Both the position numbers and the translations under genes were made by a program. Positions 811 to 33,947 of a stretch of 34,113 nucleotides of DNA are shown here, one piece after another. The stretch spans positions 1 through 34,113 of the forward strand of contig JAGAYI010000028.1 of the NCBI GenBank assembly GCA_017940545.1, given 5' to 3'. Under the pieces are notes generated by a model. The model was not told the DNA's origin, did not search any database, and was given only the letters and a program-made list of their open reading frames with translations. Source of the stretch: Prevotella sp. Lineage in GTDB: Bacteria; Bacteroidota; Bacteroidia; Bacteroidales; Bacteroidaceae. Positions within the stretch are counted from its first letter, which is position 1. Each line of letters begins with the position of its first letter.

Positions 811-1195
811 CAAAAATAGTTTATCTATCCACTAATTCGTTTAACCACTTTATAATCAAGCAGATAGTTAGTGAATAGATGCCTTTCAACTATCCACTAA
901 CTACCCACTATCAGGAAAACGGCACTTTCATACCATGAAAGTGCCGTTTACACTCTGTGAAAGTGCCGTTTACACCATGTAAATATGCCGTCTACAGCAT
1001 CTAAATATGCCGTTTCCATGATGTTAACCTATGGTTTACGACTGCTTAACCTATGGTTTACGGGTGGAAAGTATGTTGTTGATGATGTAAATAGTGGATA
1101 GTTAGTGGATAGTTAAAGGTATCTATCCACTAACTAAAACCTTATAAACAAGGGAATTAACCATGTTAGTGGATAGATGGATAGTTTTTTACAAA
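811..1195. repeat. Imperfect palindromic element with ~100-bp arms
   Basis: The arm at 811-911 matches the reverse complement of 1090-1195 over almost its whole length. The best block is 863-911 against 1090-1138, where about 48 positions pair with only a few mismatches. The outer part also pairs, including an exact atctatccactaa. The word tatccactaac or its complement occurs repeatedly in both arms. The centre (912-1089) holds the 22-bp array. No coding potential was seen. It looks like a MITE-like or otherwise mobile non-coding element, but no transposase or clear short target-site duplication is visible. Confidence 0.7.
917..1068 (+). repeat. 22-bp-period array, locus 1, with leading hairpin
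   Basis: Six consecutive units start at 937, 959, 981, 1003, 1025 and 1047. The word gccgt recurs at 943, 965, 987 and 1009, and the last two units contain ttaacctatggtttacg at 1024 and 1046, in the same phase (GTTTAC core). A perfect 15-bp inverted repeat (917-931 with 935-949, loop acc) at the left end is formed by one inverted unit facing the first direct unit. Units diverge from left to right, unlike CRISPR repeats, and there are no separate spacers. Confidence 0.85.
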
Positions 1196-1347
1196 ACATA
1201 CTTAAAACATTTTAATTCAACAAAGTCAGTATTACCCCGTCACGCTTGACTGGGGTGTCTTTTTTAGTGTTAAGGATAAATTGATGGCTGTAATCATCAT
1301 TTAGTAAGTGCAAACCAGGTGCGTAACTAAAATTTCTTTCTTTTTTA

Positions 1348-1379
1348 TTTGGCTTGCTCATCATAAGTTTGTACTTTTG
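1348..1379 (+). promoter_or_regulatory. Bacteroidota sigma-ABfr promoter for the gene at 1404
   Basis: TTTG at 1348-1351 and TACTTTTG (TAnnTTTG) at 1372-1379 are separated by 20 bp. The start codon at 1404 lies 25 bp downstream. Confidence 0.8.
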
Positions 1380-1403
1380 CACGCTGAAAATAGAAAGTAC
1401 AAA

Positions 1404-2567
1404 ATGAAATCAATTTTAAGAACATTATTACTATTGCTCTGCCTGATGATAGGAAGGGTAGGGTATGGGCAGGAAGTATGGGAACTGGTCACAGATTATG
1501 ACAACTTGAGTACAACTGATACCTATGTTATTGCGGGAAATGATGATCTTGATCACTCACGTTGGCATACTTTAAAGAACCATAGAATTCAGTATAGTTC
1601 TTCGCTGAGTCCATTGCCAATTGGTAGTACTTTAACATTAGAAACCTCTCAAAAGAGAATTTTGAGCGATATTGATGATTATGAAACATGGCTTCTATTA
1701 TCAACGGATGTCGAAGGTGAATATTATATTAAATCGACTCAACCTGGTGATTATTATCTTCAGGCCTCAAATTCAACGGGATCCTTTATTGATGCAATAA
1801 GAGATAATGAGAATGCCAAATGGCGAATACACTATACAATTGTCGGTGGAAGTGAAGAAAAGCCACATACGGTTACAGGATTATATAATGAAAACAGGAA
1901 CAAAATGCTTGCAATTTATTATACAGACTCCTATAACATTGATTGGCGTGCTTATGGTCCTTTTAATTTTAATTATATTCCAGGTGAAGAGGTCGTCCTT
2001 TTCCGTAAAGTTACAACCCAATCCGCTTCTATAACTTCTGCCGAGTACGCAACCTTCAGCAGTCCTTATGCACTTGACTTCTCTGCAGAGAGCGGGCTGA
2101 CGGTCTATACGGCAACGGTAAATGCTGCAAAGATGAAGGTGTCGTTGCATGAGGTGACCAGCAAGAAGATTCCTGCCAATACGGCGGTTGTGCTGCATGG
2201 TACACAAGGAACCTACACAGGCTCTATTGTCGAGACGGCTGAGAATCTTGTAGGAAATGACTTAAAGGTCGCCACAAGCGAGATGAGCGGTGCTGAACAT
2301 TCTATCTATGTACTGAACAAGAAGAATGGTGTGCTTGGCTTTTATAAACTGTCAAATACAGGAAAATTAGAAGCAGGCAAGGCATATTTGACGTTGAATG
2401 CCAGTGCGCCGATGCTGACTTTCACAGCCGATGAGGTGACGTCGGTGGGTCATGCCCGTTCCTCTGTTAAGACAGACAGTCTTTATTTTACGCTTGATGG
2501 TCGTCGCGTGATGTACCCGTCAAGGGGCGTGTTTATTCATAATGGTCGTAAGGTTGTTATCAAGTAA
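1404..2567 (+). CDS. Secreted protein with GRRV/GKKVVIK-type C-terminal tail, function unknown
   Basis: A 387-aa protein. The start at 1404 is chosen because it directly precedes a signal peptide (MKSILRTLLLLLCLMIG...GYGQ) and lies just after a strong promoter; an upstream in-frame ATG at 1308 would precede that promoter. Residues ~24-190 begin with a WELVTDYDNLSTTDTYVIAG segment, a pattern recurring in large Prevotella/Bacteroides secreted proteins without assigned activity. Residues ~205-340 form a predicted beta-rich module. The C-terminus holds FTLDGRRV, then GVFIHNG and RKVVIK, resembling a minimal type IX-secretion-like tail and matching the end of the BspA-like protein at 33342. The first two thirds are AT-richer than the final third. 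It is probably co-transcribed with the 52-aa gene 4 bp downstream. No catalytic motif was recognised. Confidence 0.75.
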   Translation: MKSILRTLLLLLCLMIGRVGYGQEVWELVTDYDNLSTTDTYVIAGNDDLDHSRWHTLKNHRIQYSSSLSPLPIGSTLTLETSQKRILSDIDDYETWLLLSTDVEGEYYIKSTQPGDYYLQASNSTGSFIDAIRDNENAKWRIHYTIVGGSEEKPHTVTGLYNENRNKMLAIYYTDSYNIDWRAYGPFNFNYIPGEEVVLFRKVTTQSASITSAEYATFSSPYALDFSAESGLTVYTATVNAAKMKVSLHEVTSKKIPANTAVVLHGTQGTYTGSIVETAENLVGNDLKVATSEMSGAEHSIYVLNKKNGVLGFYKLSNTGKLEAGKAYLTLNASAPMLTFTADEVTSVGHARSSVKTDSLYFTLDGRRVMYPSRGVFIHNGRKVVIK

Positions 2568-2571
2568 AGTG

Positions 2572-2730
2572 ATGAAAAAGCAATATATAACGCCGCAGGC
2601 AAAGATAGTTTTATTGGCTGAGGAAATGTCTATATTGAATAGCTCTTTGCCAGTTAGCGAAGATACTGTTGGAGGTGGGCTGGCTCCTGCCATGACGTCT
2701 GCACCTGTTGACGAGCCGACAGACGAATAG
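2572..2730 (+). CDS. Small MKKxYxxP-type protein (52 aa), function unknown
   Basis: The ATG at 2572 lies 4 bp after the preceding stop and gives a 52-aa product beginning MKKQYITPQAKIVLLAEEM and ending in an acidic DEPTDE. Its N-terminus aligns with the 57-aa protein at 33361 (MKKxY, a Pro at position 8, then a hydrophobic run with L near position 15). No signal peptide or transmembrane helix is evident. The charged, conserved leader-like N-terminus and the variable Gly/Ala/Ser/Asp-rich rest resemble a peptide precursor, but no modifying enzyme is nearby, so this is only a suggestion. Both copies directly follow a protein with the GRRV/GKKVVIK tail. The longer in-frame start at 2542 overlaps the upstream gene and lacks the conserved start. 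Confidence 0.7.
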   Translation: MKKQYITPQAKIVLLAEEMSILNSSLPVSEDTVGGGLAPAMTSAPVDEPTDE

Positions 2731-2763
2731 GGATTCCCCTAACGAAAAATCGGGATATTCCCC

Positions 2764-2794
2764 TTTGGCATTTCTGGAATATTATTTAACTTTG
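2764..2794 (+). promoter_or_regulatory. Promoter of the glycine-zipper lipoprotein gene
   Basis: TTTG at 2764-2767 and TAACTTTG at 2787-2794, spaced by 19 bp, 54 bp before the ATG at 2849. Confidence 0.8.
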
Positions 2795-2848
2795 CAGCGT
2801 GAGAATAAATATACAATTAATCAATTAAATCAGAGGGGGAACAAGTAG

Positions 2849-3673: not shown

Positions 3674-3686
3674 ACGAAAAGGAACC

Positions 3687-12698: not shown

Positions 12699-12765
12699 GC
12701 AGTAGGACTGCTCCATTTTCTTAACATTCAAGAAAACCAATCGGAACAGGGTTTTCCCCGTCCGT

Positions 12766-12963
12766 GCTCAATATCAGGCTCGCCCGCGCTCAATATCAGG
12801 CACGGGCGTGCCTGATATTGAGCGCGGGCGTGCTTTTCTCGTTTCCCCGGCAGAAACTCCCCGTCACCCCAGCAGAAACTCCCCGTTTCCCCTACCTTTT
12901 CTCCCTGTTTCCTACACCCTGTCTTTTTGTCCTTTCCGTGTAAACGTCGTGTCTGTTGTCTGC
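12766..12963 (+). repeat. 22-bp-period array, locus 2, with leading 24-bp perfect hairpin
   Basis: Nine consecutive 22-bp units start at 12766, 12788, 12810, 12832, 12854, 12876, 12898, 12920 and 12942. Units 1-3 are gctcaatatcagg-type and include an inversion that gives a perfect 24-bp inverted repeat (12781-12804 with 12807-12830, loop GG). Units 4-9 are pyrimidine-rich and all carry GT at unit positions 10-11, most as GTTTCC or GTCnCC. One 22-mer around 12892-12913 differs at a single base from the reverse complement of a segment in the array near 33800. No T-run immediately follows the hairpin, so it is a doubtful terminator. Confidence 0.85.
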
Positions 12964-12965
12964 AA

Positions 12966-12995
12966 TATCCCGATAAACGCTTATATATCGGGATA
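12966..12995. promoter_or_regulatory. Inverted repeat upstream of susC, candidate operator
   Basis: A perfect 10-bp inverted repeat, TATCCCGATA (12966-12975) and TATCGGGATA (12986-12995), with half-site centres 20 bp apart. It lies about 150 bp upstream of the susC promoter. Regulator binding is inference; it could also be a remnant of the adjacent repeat array. Confidence 0.45.
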
Positions 12996-13215: not shown

Positions 13216-16200
13216 ATGAAAAAAGACAGGTTACTTTGGCTACTCTTGGCACTTTGCGTGTCGGTAGCAACCCATGCCCAAAGTCTCTTGGGTACTGTGA
13301 CTGATGCCGAGGGCGAACCGATTATTGGTGCCTCCATCGTCGAAAAGGGAAACCCTCAGAACGCAACCATCACCAATATTGATGGTCAGTTCACCATGAA
13401 GGTGAATGCAGGGAAGACCCTCGTTATCTCTTACATTGGCTACGTTACTCAGGAAGTTTCAGCCCGCAACCAGATGACCGTTGTGCTGAAGGAAGACACC
13501 GAGTCGCTCGAGGAAGTGGTTGTAGTAGGTTATGGTGTTCAGAAGAAGAGCGTGGTGACCGCCTCCATCGCCAAGGTGAGCGCCGACGACCTCACTAATA
13601 CAGCTCCAGTACGTATGGATAACGCCCTAAAAGGTTTGGCAGCTGGTGTTAATGTTACTTCTGCCTCTGGTCAGCCCGGTGATGCAGCTCGTATTCGCAT
13701 TCGTGGTACAGGTACTATTAATAATTCAGAACCACTTTACATTGTTGATGGAATGCCTATTGAAGGAGGTCTTGATTATGTAAATCCAACTGATATTGAG
13801 TCTATCGAAGTACTTAAAGATGCAGCCTCAGGAGCTATCTATGGTGCTCGTGCAGCAAATGGAGTCATTTTGGTCACTACCAAGAAGGGTAAGATGGGTA
13901 AAGCCCAGATTAACTATAACTTTTCTTATGGCTGGCAGAGCAAGTGGAACAAACGTGACATATTGGATGCAACGAATTATGCTATTCTTCAGAATGAGCA
14001 GCGTTTGAATGGTGGTCAGGCTCCGTTATATGCTGATCCTTATAGCTTAGGAAAGGGAACAGACTGGCAAGACCTTGTATTCAATGATAACGCACCTGTT
14101 ATGAATCATGAGTTGGCTGTTAGTGGAGCATCAGAGAAAGTCAATTATTACCTCTCCATGGGCTACTATACGCAAGACGGTATTGTCGGTGGTGATTATG
14201 GACAGTCAAACTATGAGCGTTTGACATTACGCTCAAATACAAACTACAATTTGTTTGATGCAAGTAATGAGCGTAATTTCCTGAATAAGCTCGACTTGAC
14301 TGTAAATGCTTCGTATGCTCGTGTGAAGAGTTCAGGTATTGGAACAAACTCTCAGTGGGGTTCGGTTCTTGGTTCTGCTCTCGCTCTTTCTCCGATTCTT
14401 ACTCCAACATTGACTGGTTCTGCTGCTGAAGCACAGAACGCAGCCTATACCTATACGGATAAGAATGGTGATGTTCAAAGGTATGATCCCCTTTATTGGA
14501 ATGGTGAAGTTCTGATGATTCCTGGGACAAGTTTTAATGAGATAAACAACCCATTGGCATTGATGGTTCTGCCAGCTGCAAAGAACTGGAGCCATAAGTT
14601 CGTGGCTAATTTTGCAGCTGAACTGCAGTTGATTGATGCGTTGAAGTATCGTTTCTCTTATAGTGCAGACATGAGTTTCTGGGGACAGGATAGCTCCCGC
14701 CCACAGACGTACTATCGTTCTGGTAACAACAATGCTTCAACAACACAAGCATATTCAGACTCTGAACGTGGAACAGTATGGCAGATTGAAAACGTATTGT
14801 CTTATGATAAAATGTTTGGCGACCACCATATTAACCTTGTCCTTGGTCAGAGTGCATTTAAGAATACTGGTTATGGCATAAACGGCTCACGAGATTATCT
14901 TGTTAATCCTTACAAACCTTCTATCAACTATGCGCAAGGTGACTATCACCTTACATACGGTGATACCGATGTCTATGATGCAAATGGTAATCTGATTGGT
15001 AAACAGGTTACAGGTGCGGTAATAGAACATGGTGTTGCTGGATGGGTAAACGCACCTCACACAATGTCGTCTTTATTCTTCCGTGTAAGTTACGACTATG
15101 GCGAACGTTACATGGCTCAATTCACCATTCGCCGTGATGGTAGTTCACGTTTTGGTGCAAATCATAAGTATGGTACCTTCCCTTCTTTCTCATTAGGTTG
15201 GAATATCTTTAACGAGCCTTATCTGAAAGAAGTCCGTCCATCGTGGTTAAGCGCGACAAAACTGCGTTTTTCTTGGGGTAAGAATGGTAATGACAACATT
15301 GGTAATTTCCGTTACACCGTTGGTACTGCAGGAGGTAATAATGCTTATTTTGGTAATCCAGTTACCCTCACTCAAGGAACAAAAGCTAATGGACTGCCTA
15401 ATCCTGACCTGAAGTGGGAGGAGAGTGAGCAGACCAACTTCGGACTTGATTTAGGATTCTTCCAGAATGCGCTGACTTTATCAGTTGATTACTTCGTTAA
15501 AAAGACCAATGGTATGCTGATGACAATGAACATCCCCTCCTACGTGGGTGAGGCAAAGCCAATTGGTAATGTTGGTGACATGAAGAACAGTGGAGTTGAA
15601 TTCGAGCTGGGTTACAAGTGGCGCATTGCCGATGCACGTATCGGTATCAAGGGCAACGCCTCTTACCTGAAGAATAAGTTGTTAGAGTATGGTAATGAAA
15701 CAGGATATGCTGACCTTGACTCATTCCAGGGCGTAGGAACAATTACTCGTGCCGAGAACGGAAAACCATTCCCCTTCTTCTTTGGTTACAAAACAAATGG
15801 TATATTCCAGAACTATGATGAAATTAATAGTTATATTAATGCCGATGGCGGACTTATCCAGCCCGCTGCAAAACCTGGTGATGTTCGTTTTGTTGATATC
15901 AATGGTGATGGTTCGATAACTGCTGATGACCGTACCGATATTGGTAATGGTACTCCTGACTGGACATTCGGCATCAAATTGGACGCAGAATGGAGAGGGG
16001 TTGATTTTAGTATGTTCTGGCAGGGCGTACACGGTGCCGATGTTTTTGATGCTACCCACCGTGTTGATATTTCTTCTGTTAACTATCCTACGTGGATGTT
16101 GGAACGTTGGACAGGCGAAGGGTCAAGCAACAAAATCCCCCGCCTGGACGCAACTGCAACTCAGAACTGGGAGTCTTCTGACCTGTATGTCTTCGACGGT

Positions 16201-16434: not shown

Positions 16435-16454
16435 AAACTTAAACAGGTAAAAAT

Positions 16455-17996: not shown

Positions 17997-18024
17997 TAAT
18001 TTCTAACACTAAATAGTTTTCACA

Positions 18025-19410: not shown

Positions 19411-19422
19411 TTACTTATTAAA

Positions 19423-19460
19423 GTGGGGCTATAATCCTATAATTAGTAGCCTCACATTTT
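19423..19460 (+). terminator. Intra-operon hairpin with short T-run (weak terminator or processing site)
   Basis: GTGGGGCTA (19423-19431) pairs with TAGCCTCAC (19447-19455), one G-U pair, followed by only four T residues. It sits between the glycan-binding gene and the metallopeptidase-like gene and may reduce downstream expression relative to susCD. Confidence 0.5.
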
Positions 19461-19474
19461 AAATGTATTTTGAT

Positions 19475-20827: not shown

Positions 20828-20834
20828 AATTAAT

Positions 20835-22196
20835 ATGAAGAAATATTTATTTTTTTTGTTTATGACAATCTTCTCATTGACTGCTAATTCTTGTGGTGAT
20901 GATGAAGAGTCGGTTACAAGTAAAAGTGATGTTACTATAACAATATCTCAAGAAAAATTGGCAGTATCTTCTGCTGAAAGTCATTGCACTATTAATGTTA
21001 CGTGTAGTGGACGTGAGTGGACTGCTTTTGCAGACGTTGACTGGCTTAAGGTACAAGTAGTTGGTTCAACGTCAGCGACAGGTAGTTTAATAGTGGATAT
21101 CATTCAAAACTTGATGCCAGAAGAGCGTATAGGACATATAACTGTTCGCTCAGGTTCTACTCGTAAAACAATTGATATTACACAGGGCTTTCCTCTGTTG
21201 ATTTCTTCTGCAGACTTGTATTCATCTTCAAAAGGTGAAATGTTTAAGGTGGACGTTGTAGCATGGAACGGTGATTATACGATAAGTACATCTGCTGATT
21301 GGATTCAAGCTAAACGTTTCAAAGAGTCGGGAGTTGATTATATAGAAATTACGACGACAGCTAATGAGTCAAGGGAGTCTCGCTCTGCTGTCGTAGCAGT
21401 ATCTACTGATAGTGAGTCTGCTGATATTGTAGTTCACCAGTCCTCAATAGAAGACCAAACGATGTATGCCCCCGAAGGCTATGACCTGGTGTGGCACGAT
21501 GAGTTTGAAGAAGGCAGTGAGCTGAACGCTAACGACTGGACTTACGAGGTGAAGGGCTCCGGCTGGGTAAACAATGAGTTGCAGAACTATGTCAACCAGA
21601 AGACGCCCGAGGGCAACTGGGTGACGCGCATCAGCAATGGTAAACTGAACATCCGTGCTTTGAATGAGGGCGGCAAGATATACTCCGGCCGCGTCTATGC
21701 AAAGGTCAAGGAGGGCTGGACCTACGGCTACATCGAGGCCAGCATCAAGCTGCCCAAGGGTAAGGGCACGTGGCCTGCCTTCTGGATGATGCCCGTCAAC
21801 TTCACCTCCTGGCCTGCCGACGGTGAGATAGACATCATGGAGGAGGTAGGCGGCCACCCGAACTACGTCAGCAGCTCGCTGCACGCTAACGCCCACGTAC
21901 ACTCCAACGGCACGCAGGTGACGCACGAGATGTACCTGAAGGGTGCCGAGGACGACTTCCACACCTACGCCATAGAGTGGACACACGACAACATCACCAC
22001 CTACGTTGACGGTCAGGTGCAACTCTCTTACGACAATCGTGGACTGGGCCGCGACGACTGGCCCTACGACGATCCCTTCTACATCATCCTGAACCTGGCC
22101 TGGGGCGGAACGTGGGGTGGCACTTACGGCATTGACGAAAGCGCGCTGCCTACGACGATGGAGATTGACTACGTTCGCGTCTTCCAAAAGAAATAA
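20835..22196 (+). CDS. BACON-domain GH16 endo-beta-glucanase (laminarinase/lichenase-like) lipoprotein
   Basis: A 453-aa surface enzyme with lipobox LTANSC (Cys20). Residues ~33-118 and ~120-203 are two BACON domains (VTITISQEKLAVSSAESH...WLKV and LLISSADLYSSSKGE...WIQA), spacers that hold the enzyme away from the membrane. The GH16 jelly-roll occupies ~212-452: LVWHDEFEEGSELNANDW, then the catalytic ExDxxE signature GEIDIMEEVGG with nucleophile and acid/base Glu, and INLAWGG-type closing strands. GH16 enzymes of this group cut beta-1,3 or mixed beta-1,3/1,4 glucans internally. Base composition switches sharply at ~21465, exactly where the catalytic domain starts. A terminator follows at 22208-22259. 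Confidence 0.93.
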   Translation: MKKYLFFLFMTIFSLTANSCGDDEESVTSKSDVTITISQEKLAVSSAESHCTINVTCSGREWTAFADVDWLKVQVVGSTSATGSLIVDIIQNLMPEERIGHITVRSGSTRKTIDITQGFPLLISSADLYSSSKGEMFKVDVVAWNGDYTISTSADWIQAKRFKESGVDYIEITTTANESRESRSAVVAVSTDSESADIVVHQSSIEDQTMYAPEGYDLVWHDEFEEGSELNANDWTYEVKGSGWVNNELQNYVNQKTPEGNWVTRISNGKLNIRALNEGGKIYSGRVYAKVKEGWTYGYIEASIKLPKGKGTWPAFWMMPVNFTSWPADGEIDIMEEVGGHPNYVSSSLHANAHVHSNGTQVTHEMYLKGAEDDFHTYAIEWTHDNITTYVDGQVQLSYDNRGLGRDDWPYDDPFYIILNLAWGGTWGGTYGIDESALPTTMEIDYVRVFQKK

Positions 22197-22207
22197 TTTT
22201 CAGGAGA

Positions 22208-22259
22208 AGTTCCATCACATTGAGCAACGCATTACATCAATGGGGTGGAACTTTTTTTA
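22208..22259 (+). terminator. Terminator after GH16
   Basis: A 16-bp stem (22208-22223 with 22237-22252, one G-U pair and one mismatch) is followed by seven T residues at 22253-22259. It separates the susCD-GH16 transcript from the GH5-GH3 genes. Confidence 0.85.
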
Positions 22260-22295
22260 TTACTTTTTACATGATTAAATATAGCTAAACGAAGA

Positions 22296-23525
22296 ATGAA
22301 ACGATACCTGACGATTCTGTTGGTTCTTTCTTTTGCTCTCTTGCTGCCTGCCAAAAACCGCTTTGTGCAGGTAGAGGGGCCGAACTTGGTGAAGCCCAAT
22401 GGGGAACGGTTGTATATTCAGGGCACCAACCTGGGCAACTGGCTGAACCCCGAGGGCTACATGTTCGGACTCAAGAAGACCAACTCCGCCTGGATGATCG
22501 ACCTCATGGTCAAACAGCTCATTGGCCCTGATGCCGCTGCCGACTTCTGGCAGGCGTTCCGCACCAACTACATCACTAAGGCCGACATCGACTTCATTGC
22601 CGCACAGGGGGCCAACACCGTGCGGCTGCCCTTCAACTACAAGCTCTTCACCGACGAGGACTACATGGGACAGACGGGGCAGAAGCAGCCCTTCCTGCTC
22701 ATCGACCGCGTGGTGGAGTGGTGTAAGGCCGACGGCCTCTACCTCATTCTCGACATGCACGACTGTCCTGGCTCGCAGACGGGCGACAACATCGACGACG
22801 GCTACGGCTACCCGTGGCTCTTCGAGAGTGAGCGCTCGCAGCAGCTGTTCTGCGACATCTGGCAACAGATAGGCCGTCACTACAAGGACGAGCCCACCAT
22901 TCTCGGCTACGAGTTGATGAACGAGCCTATTGCCCACTACTTTGACAACCGCGAGCAGCTGAAACAGCTGCTGGAACCGCTCTACAAGCGGGCGGTGAAA
23001 GCCATCAGGGCGGTCGATAAGAACCACGTCATCCTCTTGGGCGGAGCCCACTGGAACAGCCATTTCTACATGTTCACCGACTGGACGTTCGACAAGAACA
23101 TCATGTTCACCTGCCACCGCTACGGCGGACCGGCCACTTCCGAGGCCATCAAGGACTACATAGACTTCCGCGACAAGACGCGACTGCCTATGTACATGGG
23201 CGAGATAGGCCACAATACCATGGAGTGGCAGGCGCAGTTCGTAGAGGTGATGAAGCAGAACAACATCGGCTATACCTTCTGGCCCTACAAGAAGATTGAC
23301 GACTCTTGCATGATGGGCATTCAGCGCCCTGCCGAGTGGGACAGCGTCATCGTGAAGTTCTCGGAAACCAGTCGCAACAGCTACCAGGAGTGGCGCGAGG
23401 CACGCCCCGACCAGCAGCAGGCCCGCCGGCTGCTCATGCAGTATGCTGAGAACAGCCGCTTCGACCGTTGCATTCCCCAGACAGACTATATACAGTCGCT
23501 GGGACTTGGAAAGGTGAGAAGGTGA
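22296..23525 (+). CDS. GH5 family beta-glucanase/cellulase-like glycoside hydrolase
   Basis: A 409-aa TIM-barrel enzyme with an N-terminal signal peptide (MKRYLTILLVLSFALLLPAK). GH5 landmarks in order: QGTNLGNWLNPEGYM near the N-terminus, ANTVRLPFNY, LILDMHD, the acid/base Glu in LGYELMNEP (near residue 210), an aromatic HRYGGP strand, and the nucleophile Glu in PMYMGEIGHN (near residue 305). A retaining beta-glucosidic activity is expected; the subfamily and the exo/endo mode cannot be assigned here. It follows the GH16 terminator by ~37 bp and has only a weak promoter-like tactttt, so it may depend on read-through. It is GC-rich, unlike the upstream PUL core. Confidence 0.9.
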   Translation: MKRYLTILLVLSFALLLPAKNRFVQVEGPNLVKPNGERLYIQGTNLGNWLNPEGYMFGLKKTNSAWMIDLMVKQLIGPDAAADFWQAFRTNYITKADIDFIAAQGANTVRLPFNYKLFTDEDYMGQTGQKQPFLLIDRVVEWCKADGLYLILDMHDCPGSQTGDNIDDGYGYPWLFESERSQQLFCDIWQQIGRHYKDEPTILGYELMNEPIAHYFDNREQLKQLLEPLYKRAVKAIRAVDKNHVILLGGAHWNSHFYMFTDWTFDKNIMFTCHRYGGPATSEAIKDYIDFRDKTRLPMYMGEIGHNTMEWQAQFVEVMKQNNIGYTFWPYKKIDDSCMMGIQRPAEWDSVIVKFSETSRNSYQEWREARPDQQQARRLLMQYAENSRFDRCIPQTDYIQSLGLGKVRR

Positions 23526-23666
23526 AAAAGTGAAAAGGTGAAAAAGTGAAATAAATTGAAAATCCGAAAATCGAAAATAATTATGAAACAGTCAAAGAAC
23601 AATATGGTAGGAAAGTGGGTGCGGGTAATCTTTTTACCTTTTTACTTTTTTACCTTCTTACCTTTA
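23511..23666. repeat. Simple-repeat inverted pair flanking the GH5/GH3 junction
   Basis: The left arm at ~23511-23548 (gaaaaggtgaaaaagtgaa type) and the right arm at ~23630-23666 (cttttttaccttcttacctt type) are complementary over roughly 35 bases when G-U pairs are allowed. The left arm covers the GH5 stop codon. The right arm encodes the hydrophobic core of the GH3 signal peptide. The GH3 start codon lies in the loop. Confidence 0.65.
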
Positions 23667-25856
23667 ACTGCCCAGGTCTATCTGGACGAGACGCAGCCCG
23701 TGGAGCAGCGTGTGGAGGATGCCCTCCGCCGCATGACGCTCGACGAGAAGATAGCCATCATACATGCACAGTCGAAGTTCAGCGCCCCTGGCGTGAAGCG
23801 TCTCGGTATTCCCGATATGTGGACCGACGACGGTCCCCACGGCGTGCGTCCTGACGTGCTGTGGGACGAGTGGGAGCAGGCTGGTCAGACGAACGACTCG
23901 TGCGTGGCATTCCCGGCGCTGACCTGTCTGGCTGCTACGTGGAACCCGCAGATGGCACGCCTCTACGGCGAGAGCCTCGGCGAGGAGGCACTCTATCGTG
24001 GCAAAGCCATGATTTTAGGCCCTGGTGTCAACATCAACCGCACGCCACTCAACGGCCGTAACTTTGAGTACATGGGCGAAGACCCTTGGCTGGCCTCCCG
24101 TATGGTAGTGCCCTACGTGCAGGGCTTGCAGTCGAAGGGCGTGGCAGCCTGTGTGAAGCACTATGCGCTGAACAATGACGAGGAGTATCGCCATCAGGTG
24201 AATGTCATCGTCTCCGACCGTGTCCTGCGCGAAATCTACCTGCCTGCCTTCGAGGCAGCCGTCAAGGAGGGTGGGGCATGGGCCATCATGGGTGCCTACA
24301 ACCTCTATAAGAACCAGCACAACTGTCATAACGAGATACTGCTCAACAAGATTCTGAAGCAGGAGTGGCAGTTCGACGGCGTGGTGGTCAGCGACTGGGG
24401 CGGTACGCACAACATGGACGAGGCCGTGCGCAACGGACTGGACCTGGAGTTCGGCACGTGGACCGACGGACTGACCATGGGTGCCACCAATGCCTACGAC
24501 AACTATTATCTGGCAGCAAGCTACAAGAAGGCCATCCTGGAGGGCCGCTATACCATGAAAGAGCTGGATGAAAAGGTGCGCCGCGTGCTGCGCCTGCACT
24601 TCCGCACGACGATGAACCACCAGCGGTCCTCCGGCTTTCTTTGTTCGGAGTCGCACTACGCCGCTGCCCGCCGGATTGCCGGCGAGGGCATCGTGCTGCT
24701 GAAGAACGAGCGGAACGTGCTGCCGATACAGAAAAACGCCAAGGTCCTCGTTGTCGGCGAGAACGCCGTCAAGATGATGACCGTGGGCGGAGGCTCGTCG
24801 TCGCTCAAGGTGCAGCGCGAGGTACTGCCGTTGGACGGACTGCTGTCACAACTCTGCTCCTTGGAAGGGGCTGGGGGAGGTTCCTACGCCCGTGGCTACG
24901 TCGGCGACACCGTGCAGAGCTACAACGGCGTCACCGTGGGACGCAGCATTGCCGAGAGCCGCACACCGGACGAGCTGCGTGCTGAGGCTGTCGAGAAGGC
25001 CAGACAGGCCGACGTGGTCATCGTCTTCGGCGGTCTGAACAAGTCTGACTTTCAGGATTGCGAGGGTCATGACCGCCGCCAATACGAACTGCCTTACGAG
25101 CAGAACGAGCTGGTGGAGGCACTGGCCAAGGCGAATAGGAATATCGTCTTCGTCAACATCTCGGGCAACGCCGTCGCCATGCCGTGGATTGACCGCGTGC
25201 CTGCCGTCGTGCAGGGTTGGTTCCTCGGCTCGGAGGCAGGAAATGCGCTGGCCGACGTGCTGACCGGACGCGTGAACCCCAGCGGCAAACTGCCTTTCAC
25301 GTGGTTCCGGCAGCTCAGCGACGTGCCGGCCCACCAGTTAGGGACTTACCCCGGCACGTGGCGCCAGGCTCACGATGTCATCGACGAGGATTACAAAGAA
25401 GACATCTTCGTGGGCTACCGCTGGGCCGACCTCCCGGCTCGTCAGCAGAAACAGCTGGGTGCTATGGGCAAGGTGCGCTCACCGCTCTTCCCCTTCGGCT
25501 ACGGACTGAGCTACACCACCTTCGACGTGTCGGTCAGCGGCCATGACGTTGACAGTGACCTCCGCGTGAACGTCACCGTCAGGAACACTGGCAGCGTGGC
25601 CGGAGCAGAGACCGTGCAGCTGTACGTCGGCCCTGACAAACCCGGCAGGTCGCGTCCCGTCAAGGAGCTCAAGGCCTTCCAGAAGGTATGGCTGGAGCCC
25701 GGCGAGAGCAAGACCGTCACGCTGACCGTCAGCCGCCAGTCGCTCTCCGTCTGGGACGAGGCTGCCGGTCGTTGGACGTTCAACCCCGGCACCTACCGCG
25801 CATACATCGGAACATCATCAAATGCTAATAATAGTTTTAAATTAGATTTATTGTAG
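23583..25856 (+). CDS. GH3 family beta-glucosidase
   Basis: A 757-aa exported beta-glucosidase. The ATG at 23583 is preferred; the frame can extend to a TTG at 23556. The signal peptide is unusual, its core FLPFYFFTFLPLTA being encoded by a T-rich simple repeat. The first barrel holds MTLDEKIAIIHAQS, MWTDDGPHG, VNINRTPLNGRNFEYMGEDP and VKHYALNNDEEYRH. The nucleophile is the Asp of GVVVSDWGGTHN (near residue 275). The second (alpha/beta) domain contains GEGIVLLKNERNVLPI and an ENELVEALAK region, and the C-terminal fibronectin-III-like domain follows FGYGLSYTTF. It removes terminal beta-linked glucose from oligosaccharides made by GH16/GH5. It lies 57 bp after GH5, likely co-transcribed. Confidence 0.94.
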   Translation: MKQSKNNMVGKWVRVIFLPFYFFTFLPLTAQVYLDETQPVEQRVEDALRRMTLDEKIAIIHAQSKFSAPGVKRLGIPDMWTDDGPHGVRPDVLWDEWEQAGQTNDSCVAFPALTCLAATWNPQMARLYGESLGEEALYRGKAMILGPGVNINRTPLNGRNFEYMGEDPWLASRMVVPYVQGLQSKGVAACVKHYALNNDEEYRHQVNVIVSDRVLREIYLPAFEAAVKEGGAWAIMGAYNLYKNQHNCHNEILLNKILKQEWQFDGVVVSDWGGTHNMDEAVRNGLDLEFGTWTDGLTMGATNAYDNYYLAASYKKAILEGRYTMKELDEKVRRVLRLHFRTTMNHQRSSGFLCSESHYAAARRIAGEGIVLLKNERNVLPIQKNAKVLVVGENAVKMMTVGGGSSSLKVQREVLPLDGLLSQLCSLEGAGGGSYARGYVGDTVQSYNGVTVGRSIAESRTPDELRAEAVEKARQADVVIVFGGLNKSDFQDCEGHDRRQYELPYEQNELVEALAKANRNIVFVNISGNAVAMPWIDRVPAVVQGWFLGSEAGNALADVLTGRVNPSGKLPFTWFRQLSDVPAHQLGTYPGTWRQAHDVIDEDYKEDIFVGYRWADLPARQQKQLGAMGKVRSPLFPFGYGLSYTTFDVSVSGHDVDSDLRVNVTVRNTGSVAGAETVQLYVGPDKPGRSRPVKELKAFQKVWLEPGESKTVTLTVSRQSLSVWDEAAGRWTFNPGTYRAYIGTSSNANNSFKLDLL

Positions 25857-25888
25857 TTAGTAGTATTACCATTCGCTTATGAAAGCCG

Positions 25889-25925
25889 GAAGGATGTGTG
25901 CGTGAGCATACGTCCTTCTTGCTTT
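25889..25925 (+). terminator. Terminator after GH3
   Basis: A 12-bp stem (aaggatgtgtgc at 25890-25901 with gcatacgtcctt at 25906-25917, two G-U pairs, loop GTGA) is followed by a T-rich stretch. The words gtgcgtgagcatacgtcctt recur exactly at 27138-27157. Confidence 0.75.
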
Positions 25926-26103
25926 TTCTATGGAGAAGGTGTTTTATTATTTCTAAGGATTTAAGGATATAAAGGATTTTCTGTATGATTTCTGCCAATT
26001 TCTTTCAAAAAAAACAGAATGATTCCTGGCCTTTTCTTTCCAAACACATGATAATTACTTGTGGTCCTCGCAGAGTTCACGTTAAATAATTTTCTCAGAA
26101 ATA
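25926..26103. other. AT-rich intergenic stretch without recognised feature
   Basis: Between the GH3 terminator and the SIMPL promoter. Contains short aaggat/aaggattt repeats (near 25956-25980) and an A-run but no ORF with coding character. Confidence 0.5.
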
Positions 26104-26135
26104 TTTGGCGGAATGGAAAAGATGCCGTATATTTG
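26104..26135 (+). promoter_or_regulatory. Promoter of the SIMPL gene
   Basis: TTTG at 26104-26107 and TATATTTG at 26128-26135, spacing 20 bp, 27 bp before the ATG at 26163. Confidence 0.8.
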
Positions 26136-26162
26136 TTCCCGAAAACTAAAAAGCAGAAGGTT

Positions 26163-26858
26163 ATGGAAAAGTATGGAAAACTGATTCAGGCCGCTATACT
26201 GGCCGTTGGGCTCTTGCTGCTCGGACTGTGCATCAAGAGCGGTATTGACAACTTTACCAACAAGGACCGCCGTGTCACCGTGAAGGGACTGGCCGAGAAG
26301 GTGGTAGATGCCGACAAGGTGACGTGGAACCTCTCGGTGACGTATGTCGGCGACGACTTGGACGAGCTGTTCAAGCTGCTGAACGGAAAGGTAGATATTA
26401 TTCAGCAGTACCTGAAGGACAACAAGGTGAGCGACAAGGCAAAAATCACCGTCAACTCGTTCTCTATTACCGACAACAACGCCAACGTGTGGAGCGAGCG
26501 CAGACCGACCTACCGCTACTCGGTGACGAGAAGCCTGAACGTGGCGTCGAACGACACGAAGATGATCAGCGGGCTGAAGGAGAAGGCTGCCGACGCGCTC
26601 CTGGAGAAGGGCGTCATGCTGGACAACAACTACGCGAACTACGAATATACGAAGTTCCAGGAGCTGAAGCCCGAAATGATGAGCGAGGCCATTGCCGCCG
26701 CCGAGAAGACAGCCCAGCAGTTTGCCGAGAACAGCCACTCTACCATCAACAAGATTGTGGAGGCCGGACAGGGTGAGTTCAGCATTGACGATGCCGACAT
26801 TGCCTACCAGAAGAAGGTGCGCGTGGTTTCCACCATTACCTATTCGCTGAAAGACTGA
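26163..26858 (+). CDS. SIMPL-domain (DUF541) envelope protein
   Basis: A 231-aa protein starting at 26163, just after a consensus promoter; the longer frame from 26061 includes the promoter. Residues ~8-28 form one N-terminal membrane segment (IQAAILAVGLLLLGLCI). The rest is a SIMPL domain: VTVKGLAEKVVDADKVTWNL, a central VSDKAKITVNSFSITDN, then a helix-rich middle and the closing ISTITYSLKD-like strand (VRVVSTITYSLKD). SIMPL proteins form oligomeric envelope assemblies and have been tied to stress tolerance; the biochemical role is unsettled. It lies between the two GH3 genes but has its own promoter and terminator, so a part in glucan use is not indicated. Confidence 0.85.
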   Translation: MEKYGKLIQAAILAVGLLLLGLCIKSGIDNFTNKDRRVTVKGLAEKVVDADKVTWNLSVTYVGDDLDELFKLLNGKVDIIQQYLKDNKVSDKAKITVNSFSITDNNANVWSERRPTYRYSVTRSLNVASNDTKMISGLKEKAADALLEKGVMLDNNYANYEYTKFQELKPEMMSEAIAAAEKTAQQFAENSHSTINKIVEAGQGEFSIDDADIAYQKKVRVVSTITYSLKD

Positions 26859-26976
26859 AAAAAGGTTGACACAGCGTGAATGTTGTGCTTACTACACCTT
26901 TATACAGTATCCACTTTAAGCCAGAATATCAGGCTATGTAAGCCGTTGGAAGACTGGCAGATACAAACCAGTTTGG

Positions 26977-27017
26977 CGCCGCTGAGTCCACTTTCAGACT
27001 TAGCGGCGTTGTTTTAT
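26977..27017 (+). terminator. Terminator after the SIMPL gene
   Basis: CGCCGCTGAGTC (26977-26988) pairs with GACTTAGCGGCG (26997-27008), one G-U pair, followed by ttgtttta. It lies ~120 bp after the stop, so the transcript would carry a long 3' untranslated region. Confidence 0.75.
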
Positions 27018-27031
27018 GCTTTTTTTATGCC

Positions 27032-27039
27032 TACCTTTG
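27032..27039 (+). promoter_or_regulatory. -7 element of a candidate small RNA
   Basis: TACCTTTG fits TAnnTTTG and is followed by GC as in many promoters here. The -33 element is poor (ttg at 27009-27011). Confidence 0.5.
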
Positions 27040-27044
27040 CACCA

Positions 27045-27162
27045 CAATTCAATGTTATTGTTAGTTGTTATATAGATTCACACTTATTAGGTACTAATAG
27101 AAAAAAAGTAAGTAGTTTTGGTTAGAAAACAGGGCGGGTGCGTGAGCATACGTCCTTTTTTT
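27045..27162 (+). ncRNA. Candidate ~118-nt small RNA
   Basis: Between the promoter element at 27032-27039 and the hairpin plus T-run at 27131-27162 there is no ORF longer than a few codons. The interval is AU-rich and ends in a well-formed terminator whose 3' arm and loop are identical to the GH3 terminator. This is the layout of an intergenic small RNA. Alternatively it is only a remnant or a leader of the following GH3 gene, whose own promoter starts at 27176. Confidence 0.4.
27131..27162 (+). terminator. Terminator upstream of the second GH3 gene
   Basis: agggcgggtgc (27131-27141) pairs with gcatacgtcct (27146-27156) through several G-U pairs, loop GTGA, followed by seven T residues. Confidence 0.7.
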
Positions 27163-27175
27163 AAAAAATAATGTG

Positions 27176-27183
27176 TATCTTTG
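27176..27183 (+). promoter_or_regulatory. -7 element of the second GH3 gene
   Basis: TATCTTTG matches TAnnTTTG, 47 bp upstream of the ATG at 27231. The expected -33 position falls in the T-run of the preceding terminator. Confidence 0.65.
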
Positions 27184-27230
27184 CAACCGAATAGTAATTT
27201 TTGAAACCTAAAACATATAAAGACAACCAT

Positions 27231-29489
27231 ATGAAAAAAACATTCTTACTGGCAGTAGCCATGACGCTCAGCGCCATTACTGCCTTTGCACAACAGCAGG
27301 ACATGAGGACATTCGTGGATAACCTGATGAGCCGCATGACCCTGCAGGAGAAAATAGGACAGCTGAACCTGCAGGTGGCTGGCGACATTACCACCGGACA
27401 GGCCCAGGACACCCAAGTGGCCGGACTCATTGCCGAGGGCAAGATGGGCGGCGTGTTCAACCTGAAGGGCGTTGACAAGATACGTGCCCTGCAGGACATT
27501 GCCGTCAGGAAGTCGCGCCTGGGTATTCCGCTCATTGTGGGCATGGACGTCATTCACGGCTACGAGACCATTTTCCCCATACCCCTGGCCATGGCCTCGT
27601 CGTGGGACATGGAGGCCATTGAGCGTGCCGCCCGCATTGCCGCCGTCGAGGCATCGGCCGACGGCATCGACTGGTTCTACAGCCCCATGGTAGATATCTG
27701 CGTGGATGCCCGCTGGGGGCGCACGGCAGAGTCGGCCGGCGAGGACCCCTTCTTGGGCAGTGCGGTGGCTCAGGCATACATACGGGGCTACCAGGGCAAC
27801 GGCATGAAGGGCAACGACGAGGTGATGGCCTGCGTGAAGCACTTCGCACTCTACGGTGCTGTGGAGGCCGGGCGCGACTACAACACCGTGGATATGAGCC
27901 GCCTGCGCATGTACAACCAGTACTTCCCGCCCTACAAGGCTGCTGCCGAGGCCGGCGCCGGTTCGTTCATGTCGTCGTTCAACCTGGTTGACGGACAGCA
28001 TGCCACGGCCAACCGCTGGCTGCTGACCGACGTGCTGCGCACGAAGTGGAAGTGGGACGGATTTGTGGTGACCGACTACGGCTCCATAGGCGAAATGATC
28101 AGCCACGGCTTCGGCGACCTGGCCCACAACTCGGCCCTGGCCCTGCATGCAGGTACTGACATGGACATGTGTGCGCAGGGATTCCTGGGCACGCTGGAGC
28201 AGCAGGTGAACGACGGCCGCGTGAGCATGGCCGACATTGACCTGGCCTGCCGCCGCGTGTTGGAGGCGAAGTACAAGCTCGGGCTTTTTGCCGACCCCTA
28301 TAAGTATTTGGACCCGAAGCGACGCGCGCGCGACATCTATACCGACGCGAACCGGCGTGCCAGCCGCGAACTGGCTGCCGAGACTTTCGTGCTGCTGAAG
28401 AACAGCGGCAACGTGCTGCCGCTGAAGGGTGAGCAGAAGATTGCCCTCATAGGCCCGTTGGCCGACGACCGTGCCAACATTGCCGGTACGTGGTGTGTAG
28501 CCTATACGCCTGAACGTTATGCCACCATCAAGGAGGCCTTGCAGCGTAAGATGCAGCAACTGCCAAACGGCAGATTGCTCTACGCACAGGGCTGTAACCT
28601 GACGCGCGACGAGGCCCTGCAGCGTGCCGCAGAGTTCGGAAAGACCATGCCGCGTGGCGACGAGGCGCAGCTGAAGGCCGAGGCCCTGGCCGTGGCCCGT
28701 CAGGCTGACGTCATCGTGTGTGCCATGGGCGAGTGTGCCGACTTCAGCGGCGAGAGCTCCAGCCGTGCCAACCTGGAACTGCCCGACGTGCAGCGCGAGC
28801 TGTTAGAGGAACTGGTCAAGCTGGGCAAGCCCGTCGTGCTGCTCAACTTCTCTGGACGTGCCACGGTGCTGACGTGGGAGCAGGAGCATGTCGATGCCAT
28901 TATGAACGTGTGGTTCGGAGGCTCGGAGGCCGGCGATGCCATCTGCGACGTGCTCTTCGGCGACAAGGCACCCACCGGCAAGCTGACCGTCACCATGCCG
29001 CAGGCCGTCGGTCAGGTACCTATCTATTATAACCACCTGAACACAGGGCGCCCCGTGCCCGAGGGTGCCGACCACTACTTCAAGTATTCGAGCAACTATC
29101 TTGACGTGCGCAACGACCCACTCTATCCCTTCGGCTACGGACTGACGTACACCACCTTCCGTTATGATGCCCCGCAGCTGTCGGCCGACAACAAGCAGGT
29201 CAGCGTGCAGGTGACGAACACCGGCACGCGCGACGGCGACGAAGTGGTGCAGCTGTACATACGCGACGTGTTTGCATCGGTCAGCCGTCCCGTCAAGGAA
29301 CTCAAGGGCTTCCGGCGCATTCACCTGAAGGCTGGCGAGACACAAACCGTCACGTTCGAACTGACACCTGACCTGCTGTCGTTCTACGACTACGACGGCA
29401 ACCTGGTGCTGGAGCCCGGTGAGTTCATCATCATGACAGGCCCCAACAGCCGCGACGTGCAAAGCGTCAAGCTTTCTGTAGTAGAGTAA
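27231..29489 (+). CDS. bglX: GH3 family periplasmic beta-glucosidase, BglX-like
   Basis: A 752-aa exported enzyme; the ATG at 27231 starts a signal peptide (MKKTFLLAVAMTLSAITAFAQ), and the upstream in-frame TTG at 27201 is less likely. BglX-type features: MTLQEKIGQLNLQ, GVFNLKGVDKIRALQ, GIPLIVGMDVIHGYETIFPIP, KHFALYGAVEAGRDYNTV, and the nucleophile Asp in GFVVTDYGSIGEM (near residue 281). The acid/base region CADFSGESSSRANLELP is near residue 505. The fibronectin-III-like end follows FGYGLTYTTF. The enzyme completes breakdown of beta-glucan oligosaccharides to glucose. It has its own promoter and differs clearly from the GH3 at 23583. The stop is 3 bp from the convergent cache-domain gene. 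Confidence 0.95.
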   Translation: MKKTFLLAVAMTLSAITAFAQQQDMRTFVDNLMSRMTLQEKIGQLNLQVAGDITTGQAQDTQVAGLIAEGKMGGVFNLKGVDKIRALQDIAVRKSRLGIPLIVGMDVIHGYETIFPIPLAMASSWDMEAIERAARIAAVEASADGIDWFYSPMVDICVDARWGRTAESAGEDPFLGSAVAQAYIRGYQGNGMKGNDEVMACVKHFALYGAVEAGRDYNTVDMSRLRMYNQYFPPYKAAAEAGAGSFMSSFNLVDGQHATANRWLLTDVLRTKWKWDGFVVTDYGSIGEMISHGFGDLAHNSALALHAGTDMDMCAQGFLGTLEQQVNDGRVSMADIDLACRRVLEAKYKLGLFADPYKYLDPKRRARDIYTDANRRASRELAAETFVLLKNSGNVLPLKGEQKIALIGPLADDRANIAGTWCVAYTPERYATIKEALQRKMQQLPNGRLLYAQGCNLTRDEALQRAAEFGKTMPRGDEAQLKAEALAVARQADVIVCAMGECADFSGESSSRANLELPDVQRELLEELVKLGKPVVLLNFSGRATVLTWEQEHVDAIMNVWFGGSEAGDAICDVLFGDKAPTGKLTVTMPQAVGQVPIYYNHLNTGRPVPEGADHYFKYSSNYLDVRNDPLYPFGYGLTYTTFRYDAPQLSADNKQVSVQVTNTGTRDGDEVVQLYIRDVFASVSRPVKELKGFRRIHLKAGETQTVTFELTPDLLSFYDYDGNLVLEPGEFIIMTGPNSRDVQSVKLSVVE

Positions 29490-29492
29490 ATT

Positions 29493-30389: not shown

Positions 30390-30418
30390 TCCTGTCTCAT
30401 GTTTTTTTTATTTGGGTG

Positions 30419-30426
30419 CAAAGTTA
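30419..30426 (-). promoter_or_regulatory. -7 element of the cache-domain gene
   Basis: Minus-strand TAACTTTG, 30 bp upstream of the ATG at 30389; the -33 half is weak. Confidence 0.65.
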
Positions 30427-30680: not shown

Positions 30681-30688
30681 TACTTTTG
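30658..30688 (+). promoter_or_regulatory. Promoter of the BspA-like gene
   Basis: TACTTTTG at 30681-30688 with GTTG at 30658-30661 as an imperfect -33. The leader to the ATG at 30733 is 44 nt. Confidence 0.7.
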
Positions 30689-30732
30689 CAACCGAATTTA
30701 AAACTCTAACTATTAGTAGAATCAATAAAAAA

Positions 30733-33342: not shown

Positions 33343-33360
33343 GAAGGGGAGGAATAAGCA

Positions 33361-33534
33361 ATGAAAAAGAGATATTTAAAACCCGAAATGGAAGTTACGG
33401 AACTTCTTGGAATTGATACCATCTGCCACGCGTCAATATACGCCTCTGACGGTCAGACTCCAGTAGATGTGATTCAGGACAATGATGACGATGACAGCTG
33501 GCAGAAACCTACCGGTCCCATCTGGATCGATTAA
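33361..33534 (+). CDS. Small MKKxYxxP-type protein (57 aa), function unknown
   Basis: The ATG at 33361 gives 57 residues starting MKKRYLKPEMEVTELLGIDT and ending KPTGPIWID. The N-terminus aligns with the 52-aa protein at 2572 (MKK-Y--P, then a Val/Leu-containing segment); the remainder is dissimilar, acidic (DNDDDD) and carries one Cys and two Trp. It has no signal peptide or membrane helix. Its position 18 bp after a GRRV/GKKVVIK-tailed secreted protein repeats the arrangement at 1404-2730 and supports that it is a real gene. The small size, conserved N-terminus and variable C-terminus would suit a peptide precursor or partner protein, but no function is established. A strong terminator follows. 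Confidence 0.72.
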   Translation: MKKRYLKPEMEVTELLGIDTICHASIYASDGQTPVDVIQDNDDDDSWQKPTGPIWID

Positions 33535-33580
33535 TTAGACTTCATAGTTAGTAGTTTTTAATAGTAGTTTTGTGTGTCGT

Positions 33581-33610
33581 GGGATGCCCCAGCGGGGGCA
33601 TCCCCTTTTT
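33581..33610 (+). terminator. Terminator of the BspA-like/small-protein operon
   Basis: A perfect 10-bp stem GGGATGCCCC (33581-33590) with GGGGCATCCC (33595-33604), followed by T residues to 33610. Confidence 0.92.
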
Positions 33611-33613
33611 GTT

Positions 33614-33650
33614 TTTAGACGAATGGACGAATATTTAGACGAATGGACGA
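33614..33650. repeat. Short direct repeat, 20-bp period
   Basis: The word tttagacgaatggacga occurs at 33614-33630 and 33634-33650, exactly 20 bp apart, directly after the terminator. No further structure was seen until the 22-bp array. Confidence 0.7.
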
Positions 33651-33786
33651 AGGAACGAAATCTTTTTAACACGAATTGCCATGAATTGTCCATTAATGGC
33701 TGCGCATAGCAAAATTATATGAGAAATTATATGGTGATTATGTCAAAGAAAGAAACAGATTCATTCTCTCTAAGAGAGAGTGCCGT

Positions 33787-33947
33787 GGAAACTGGGAGAA
33801 ACTGCCGGGGAAACGGGGACTTTGGGTAGGGGAAACAGGGAGAAAGGGTAGGGGAAACTGGAACACAGCGGCCGCTGTTCATTCTAACACCGCCCGCTGT
33901 GAGTTCTAACAGCGGGCGGTGTTAGTTCTAACAGCGGGCGGTGTTGT
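33787..33947 (-). repeat. 22-bp-period array, locus 3, with leading 17-bp perfect hairpin
   Basis: On the plus strand ggaaac recurs at 33787, 33809, 33831 and 33853, then ttctaac recurs at 33882, 33904 and 33926, all exactly 22 bp apart within each group. Read on the minus strand, the ggaaac words become GTTTCC, the same core as in the other arrays. A perfect 17-bp inverted repeat (33884-33900 with 33909-33925) is formed by an inverted unit pair at the 5' end in that orientation. One unit matches a unit of locus 2 with a single difference. Confidence 0.85.

Follow-up and report, generated by a model that had tools for sequence, protein, structure and literature searches.

The 22-bp arrays of the Prevotella contig

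The DNA considered here (hereafter the window) is the entire contig C53, 34,113 bases long, from a Prevotella sp. genome (G000) of 2.2 Mb in 65 contigs that is 70.5% complete; the L17 protein encoded in the window is, among the 80 named loci kept for comparison, nearest to that of Prevotella. Three intergenic arrays of a tandem 22-bp repeat lie in it, and these arrays, with the elements that carry them, are the subject of this report. Autocorrelation over the whole window, with an identity above 0.5 over 110-bp segments as the threshold for an array, detected lag 22 only at 858-1120, 12718-12983 and 33715-34014 (maxima of 0.74, 0.65 and 0.69, respectively), and Tandem Repeats Finder (TRF) returned a period of 22 at each of these loci. 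Lags 20, 21, 23 and 33 nowhere rose above 0.5, lag 44 did so at the arrays, and lags 24 (0.54) and 30 (0.52) exceeded it near 520-670, at the end of rplQ. An earlier note on this DNA, made from the sequence alone, had described three such arrays and a 22-mer nearly identical between the second and the third; both observations are borne out, GTTTCCCCTACCTTTTCTCCCT of locus 2 and GTTTCCCCTACCCTTTCTCCCT of locus 3 differing at a single base. Loci 2 and 3 contain units with the sequence GTTTmC together with a distinct class of palindromic units; the palindromic units are called A units below, and the units adjoining them B units. The features are as follows.

820..1189, + strand: locus 1 element, of a second repeat family, with the array at about 917-1070 carrying GTTTAC cores and flanked by inverted 11-bp repeats
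885..911, + strand: left flanking inverted repeat of locus 1, of ACTATCCACT type, a 27-nt arm
1091..1117, - strand: right flanking inverted repeat of locus 1, partner of the arm at 885-911
12735..12934, + strand: locus 2 array, with A-type palindromic units at about 12757-12835, then B units of GTTTCCCC type at about 12836-12912
33765..33860, - strand: B units of locus 3, of GTTTCCCCGGCAGTTTCTCCCA type, the repeat ending sharply on its outer side at about 33765, where the coverage by other copies begins
33861..33950, - strand: four A units of locus 3, AACACCGCCCGCTGTT / AACAGCGGCCGCTGTT palindromes, located by autocorrelation and inverted-arm search
33951..34113, - strand: leader of locus 3, cut off by the contig end before the terminal inverted repeat that copy L037 has

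At the three loci the inverted repeats reported earlier, perfect over 15, 24 and 17 bp, can be read, and longer arms appear when mismatches are allowed, namely 27 nt at locus 1 (885-911/1091-1117, 93% complementary), 27 nt at locus 2 (12778-12804/12807-12833), and 44 and 29 nt at locus 3, with centres near 33905 and 33916.

An often palindromic unit with genome-specific letters

The unit often follows a plan of roughly an arm of 8 bases, a centre of 3, the reversed arm of 8 and a further centre of 3. This is most readily seen in genome G016, in which a motif-free alignment of 39 arrays (235 units) yielded cnTCAaaTtacnnngtaAtnTG, that is, GTAATTTG-CNT-CAAATTAC-NNN. Since a dyad in a sequence of period 22 implies a second dyad 11 bp away, the two centres represent one symmetry and not two. 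When each unit was compared with permutations of its columns (p<0.05), palindromy was found in 30 of the 39 G016 arrays, in all six from G010, in 15 of 20 arrays from other genomes and in 11 of the 12 arrays of a later set, or 62 of 77 outside G000. The pattern TTAC-N3-GTAA, taken from G016 and G010, was the leading one of 2,048 gapped tetramer palindromes (z 6.4) when 17 arrays from other genomes were scored and the 60 best raw scores corrected for composition; these 17 remained after three of the 20 arrays (L132, L140 and one of the two in L155) had been dropped against double-counting of a place or species, and include two, L264 and L265, that both come from G004. In the later set the leaders included TTTT-N7-AAAA (z 9.0) and TTGC-N3-GCAA (z 7.3), with TTAC-N3-GTAA at z 3.5. 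The middle triplets vary between neighbouring units with identical arms, for example in G051 and G063, and in L135 and L140 the units are homogenised within the locus.

In G016, TGAYGCA-N15-TGAYGCA occurs 168 times (84+84), against 0+1 for the control. Pairs of TTAC-N3-GTAA, at any gap from 1 to 31, were found in 24 of 200 genomes of the genus, with up to 99 per genome, and among the matches listed, which come from 15 of these 24 genomes, a spacing of 22 bp holds for 78 of 80 plus-strand rows, the other two being spaced at 19 and 20 bp (80 of the 83 listed plus-strand rows were counted; the other three are repeats of one G188 string, also at 22 bp). Each genome has its own typical 11 bases between the paired motifs, and these come close to a palindrome, with 2.92 of 5 pairs formed against 1.46 expected. 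The reversed control unexpectedly matched in G200 and pointed to AATG-N3-CATT, which was then searched directly in five genomes, where its pairs were spaced at 22 bp in 39 of 39 cases in G200, 6 of 6 in G101, 3 of 5 in G050, none of 4 in G186 and none of 15 in G446, which indicates that the outer arms change too. G446, from another genus of the family, has pairs of AATGTCTCATT, 13 of the 15 listed at a spacing of 30 bp, with a similar inner sequence, and these constitute a different repeat. Two other genera of the family show arrays of similar style with periods of 23 bp (G450, at least seven plus-strand rows) and 24 bp (G227, at least two). Among 395 genomes from across the phylum, 29 matched TTAC-N3-GTAA pairs, none with more than two per strand, and 1 of the 31 listed plus-strand rows was spaced at 22 bp.

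The preference for lag 22 was also assessed without reference to any motif, arrays being selected by the lag threshold. In 400 kb of G000 (contigs C3, C30 and C37, known beforehand to contain copies) 11 loci were found at lag 22, and G016, sampled in ten 20-kb stretches at even intervals, gave nine, with none in either sample at lags 19, 20 and 23-26; the full G016 sample consists of these ten stretches (9 arrays) and of 20 stretches picked for motif matches, which supplied 30 of the 39 arrays. Around rplQ in named records (Prevotella, Segatella and others; 1.17 Mb) there were 14 loci at lag 22, against 1, 0, 2, 0 and 0 at control lags 19, 20, 23, 25 and 26; some lags divisible by 3 were as frequent or more so (lag 15, 22 loci; lag 30, 15; lag 21, 13), as expected for coding DNA. 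Conservation of an array directly after rplQ was considered and rejected, as only 8 of the 77 loci tested (of the 80) reach 0.5 at lag 22, three of them (L156, L197 and L200) are not array-like by eye, and the best lag was 24 at 14 loci, against 22 at 8. The neighbourhood of tnaA gave nine lag-22 loci after removal of a run of N in L348, which adds one to every lag; L377 refetches the array of L347, so that one array was counted twice among those examined. No locus appeared at any lag from 10 to 60 in a 50-kb E. coli control. The period thus recurs in intergenic DNA of the source genome and of related Prevotella, as the earlier note had proposed to check, but not in every genome: G009 has no lag-22 locus in 140 kb, G004 has two weak ones, and in a 221-kb sample of the genus lag 22 (4 loci) does not stand above lags 21 (5), 14 (4) and 28 (4). 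Long-range phasing outside the arrays is slight in G016 and was not seen elsewhere. In 20 stretches, some of them short, from 20 genomes of the genus (L092-L111), lags that are multiples of 7 (14, 28, 35, 49 and 56) recur, which suggests heptad arrays in some genomes.

Dispersed copies and the elements that carry them

When 281 bases around locus 3 served as the query, its own genome yielded at least 35 alignments at no fewer than 19 places, locus 3 being one of them (of 68 candidates, 19 were scored); 39 other genomes, among which 23 belong to the same genus, yielded none. One family, dispersed in G000, includes locus 3 and a part of locus 2, and locus 2 is matched by 28 fetched loci of its genome, several of them mutually overlapping, nearly all on its B units. 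Locus 1 is a copy of a second family, with a 74% alignment over 820-1189 to one other place of the genome (where L015 and L016 overlap). Several G000 copies stand at contig ends (C52, C54, C59, C60 and C55), as expected if repeats break the assembly. The earlier note was right that this is a defined genetic element, as opposed to random simple repeats. The GTTTmC core that had been regarded as common to all three arrays fares less evenly; GTTTMC-N16-GTTTMC is enriched genome-wide (25+31, or 56 occurrences, against 10+2, or 12, for the reversed control) but is present in part of each array only.

In all 17 copies inspected (of 26 loci) the A units precede the B units (GTTTCCCC and its variants), and most copies have about four A units. 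These fall into several sequence classes in which the palindrome is kept and the letters of the arms differ: AACAGCG-CGCTGTT, TTGACACG-CGTGTCAA, TTTGCACG-CGTGCAAA, TAGCACG-CGTGCTA and TTTCAGCG-CGCTGAAA. The earlier note had seen in the three window loci a common rule, a hairpin placed as a separate module on the same side of each array. That rule does not survive, because loci 2 and 3 owe their fixed unit order to shared descent and locus 1 belongs to another family, so that these are not three independent cases, and because inverted units arise by symmetry where the units are so often palindromic; the one-sided hairpin is mostly a matter of shared descent plus unit symmetry. About 180 bp from one A/B element (L041:1832-1963) lies an extra 22-bp array of GTTTTCCCGAGATTC units, three direct and then three inverted.

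In G016 some arrays lie inside an element of about 450 bp composed of leader, array and tail. Pairwise identity among six of seven aligned copies (L256 was left out) is 0.62 in the leader, 0.69 in the array and 0.63 in the tail, and 0.39 and 0.38 outside; of the 22 unit columns, seven stand at 0.83-1.0, two at 0.27 and 0.33, and the rest at 0.47-0.82, so that some positions of the arms are more conserved than the carrier element and some of the middle triplet stands at background. One such copy used as a query gave at least 44 alignments across the genome, itself included (40 of 197 candidates scored). The tail, for example at L088:18876-19001, includes a stretch of 30-40 codons ending in HFKYASYEKAIVNILE that recurs in many copies, often with stops, for which reason it was rejected as a gene; it is perhaps a decayed gene end. 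In G000 a leader is common to some copies, including locus 3 of the window, whose leader matches positions 38-186 of the L037 leader at 89.6%. L037 itself measures 448 bp and has inverted ends that begin with TTAACGTGAGTTCG (56 nt, 80% complementary). The terminal repeat TTAACGTGAGTTCGAYGTAAG was found within three mismatches at 12 places in G000 (L333-L344), several near contig ends, against none for the reversed control; by eye, these places show no autonomous parent element. L134 is without the array of L132, L135 and L140, but the region has diverged.

Genomic placement

With genes called as simple open frames, 38 of the 39 G016 arrays do not lie mostly inside a called frame. Their density per 10 kb of intergenic DNA is 4.30 in tandem, 4.28 in convergent and 4.71 in divergent gaps, and among gaps of at least 150 bp an array occurs in 21 of 90 tandem, 7 of 34 convergent and 8 of 33 divergent ones. 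This equality disfavours promoter, terminator and 3' untranslated region (3'-UTR) roles, and both a promoter operator and a 3'-UTR element were rejected on it. A recurrent neighbouring gene as partner was likewise rejected, and no family recurs in the G016 flanks in particular (73 proteins, 205 families, the commonest in three). Along the G016 chromosome, 55 arrays are spread over 16 bins with 0-6 in each (81 of the 84 plus-strand positions used), and no origin-to-terminus (ori-ter) bias of the nucleoid-occlusion kind is evident in these positions.

In the window, a perfect 20-bp tandem duplication of TTTAGACGAATGGACGAATA at 33614-33651 adjoins locus 3, and a gene run resembling a polysaccharide-utilisation locus begins just past locus 2 (13216-29489), with a TonB receptor, a SusD-like protein, a glucanase-like protein and two GH3-type proteins; of the last four, BglX (27201-29489) alone passes its curated cut-off.

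Interpretation and alternative explanations

What is observed is an exact 22-bp phasing, a motif common to many arrays within one genome but not the same in others, free middle triplets, dispersed copies with a leader (and, in G016, a tail) and one copy with terminal inverted repeats (TIRs). The explanation that we favour, at slightly better than even chances, is that these are intergenic, non-autonomous elements resembling miniature inverted-repeat transposable elements (MITEs) and built around a minisatellite, whose 22-bp units, often palindromic almost to perfection, are putative protein-binding sites. Each palindrome would be bound by a symmetric, presumably dimeric, protein supplied in trans, and adjacent sites would face roughly the same side of the helix; unequal exchange within a locus would change the number of units and homogenise them, and a transposase or recombinase recognising the element would spread it to new intergenic sites. 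Of the possibilities that the earlier note had listed, two have gained some support: an array bound by a protein, and a non-autonomous repeat that an enzyme copies.

Several results weigh against this explanation. No binding protein or transposase was identified among the flanking genes or, by eye, at the 12 terminal-repeat places: 150 flanking proteins contain no recurrent family (largest cluster, three), and no transposase frame is evident by eye at those places, where no family scan was made. Among the copies seen, L037 alone has terminal repeats at both ends, L034 having the left end only, and no target-site duplication is visible beside L037. In G000 itself only 4 of 11 arrays pass the palindromy test and TTAC-N3-GTAA is weak (z 1.4). 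Most unit columns other than the well-kept ones (0.47-0.73) are no better kept than leader and tail, and the periods of 23 and 24 in other genera imply that 22 is not a strict helical requirement. Lastly, the 219 G016 units used for the pairing analysis given below were chosen by exact TGAYGCA, and the second dyad lies outside that test.

Two alternatives come next in probability. The arrays might be sites of chromosomal architecture (macrodomain, nucleoid-occlusion or centromere-like) for a host protein, which mobility only seeded. Their spread along G016, their orientation-neutral position outside called genes, the part of the unit that is better conserved than leader and tail, and the 168 motif pairs of that genome would all suit such a role, but any given motif is missing from many genomes of the genus (TTAC pairs in 24 of 200), no ori-ter pattern was seen in G016, and copies with shared leader, tail or terminal repeats resemble a mobile element; we regard it as unlikely, though deserving of weight. 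A shade less credible still is a pure minisatellite, grown by slippage, trapped in a transposable element and bound by nothing. BrickBuilt has been described, in the part of the source available, as a MITE that trapped a repeat (PMC4596501), units are homogenised within L135 and L140, and many unit columns are kept no better than leader and tail; slippage does not, however, account readily for the same 22-bp plan in unrelated sequences, nor for middle triplets that differ between adjacent units with identical arms (G051, G063). A bolder extension of the favoured explanation is that each Prevotella species has a fast-evolving DNA-binding protein and a set of its own of palindromic 22-bp arrays, numbering from tens to hundreds. 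Protein and site would change together while the geometry stays fixed, and the arrays would have a role in chromosome organisation or inheritance, as a bacterial counterpart of satellite or centromere-type repeats that evolve rapidly. This is speculative, and we would not expect it to prove correct.

The remaining alternatives carry little weight. A structured RNA, in which each palindrome is a hairpin of the transcript, is very improbable, and RNA hairpins were rejected. A promoter-like motif, TAnnTTTG, stands upstream of 9 of 17 G000 copies inspected by eye, and in 61 A units of G000 positions 4 and 13 are compensated (AT 40, GC 12, AC 5, GT 4). Against this, G-T does not exceed A-C on either strand, as a wobble preference would have it; positions 5-12 and 8-9 of the A unit pair below expectation (16 each, with about 31 expected); in the 219 G016 units, seven column pairs that span the testable dyad were examined and none pairs in excess (p<0.05), as for a double-stranded DNA site; Rfam covariance models at the gathering score gave no match in 69,704 bases from seven sources; and gene orientation has no influence on placement. 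Compensation also appears between neighbouring A units (TA 28 and CG 8 against TG 6 and CA 3), consistent with a half-site being homogenised along the array. That the arrays are operators of a transcriptional regulator is more improbable again: some lie just upstream of promoter-like sequence (L132, L135 and L140), but convergent gaps are nearly as rich in arrays as divergent ones and the flanking genes are functionally mixed. Repetitive extragenic palindromic sequences and bacterial interspersed mosaic elements (REP/BIME) of enterobacteria are intergenic palindromes, clustered and in alternating orientation. The arrays share these traits and also differ in sequence between genomes, but their spread by a REP-associated tyrosine transposase (RAYT, Y1) is the explanation to which we give the least credence and was rejected, as, of the 15 genomes with TTAC matches that were searched, 8 gave no Y1_Tnp match (some are incomplete, though G051 and G063, both among the 8, are 94% and 92% complete) and none of ten fetched Y1_Tnp loci, only three of them in this genus, has a 22-bp array.

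Comparison with known systems

The matS sites of MatP are 5-3-5 palindromes that occur as single sites; TTTAC-N3-GTAAA resembles them in form, but stands in 22-bp arrays, and there may be a resemblance to the ParB and Noc systems as well. In clustered regularly interspaced short palindromic repeats (CRISPR), identical repeats alternate with unique spacers, in contrast to the contiguous, spacer-free units of the arrays inspected. To our knowledge, chromosome organisation in the Bacteroidota is largely an open question, to which the present arrays would speak if it is true that a factor bound to them organises the chromosome. That the geometry persists in many genomes of a genus, with the letters exchanged throughout each genome, points to a trans-acting factor of changing specificity; some of the repeated intergenic DNA of a genus abundant in gut and rumen would thereby be explained.

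The earlier note knew of no described element of this form; it had overlooked BrickBuilt, a MITE of Porphyromonas gingivalis that, as far as the available part of the source goes, has a leader, 23-nt tandem repeats, a tail and small TIRs, is intergenic and has 19 copies, with matches in P. gulae and weak tail-only matches in two Prevotella; 22-nt repeats are also reported there for P. gingivalis strain W83 (PMC4596501). The Prevotella arrays share with it a spacer-free tandem repeat of 22-24 nt in intergenic DNA, and a leader and tail common to copies in G016 (in G000 a leader in some copies, the tail not being shown). They differ in their period, which is 22 for the window arrays and for almost every listed row of the genus, against 23 nt (the letters of the units were not compared), in letters that change from genome to genome, with more than 100 motif pairs in one of them, and in a palindromic plan over unrelated sequences, which the portion of the BrickBuilt source seen does not report (PMC4596501). 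The kind of element is thus already known from the composition of BrickBuilt; a palindromic plan whose letters can be replaced did not turn up in the open-licence PubMed Central literature searched, some of it available in part. PINSR, a 188-bp intergenic repeat of Prevotella intermedia and P. nigrescens, is described in the sections available as present in 177-184 copies, judged non-coding and without terminal inverted repeats, with one reported copy downstream of tnaA, and no internal 22-bp periodicity is mentioned in them (PMC4755523). Its length equals 8.5 units of 22 bp, and in G100 tnaA is followed, after about 250 bp, by a 22-bp array, which is no more than suggestive; compared by its partial description and not by sequence, PINSR is a possible further member. 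The plan identified here may unite repeats that have been named separately, BrickBuilt and perhaps PINSR, and offers a bait with which the putative binding protein could be found.

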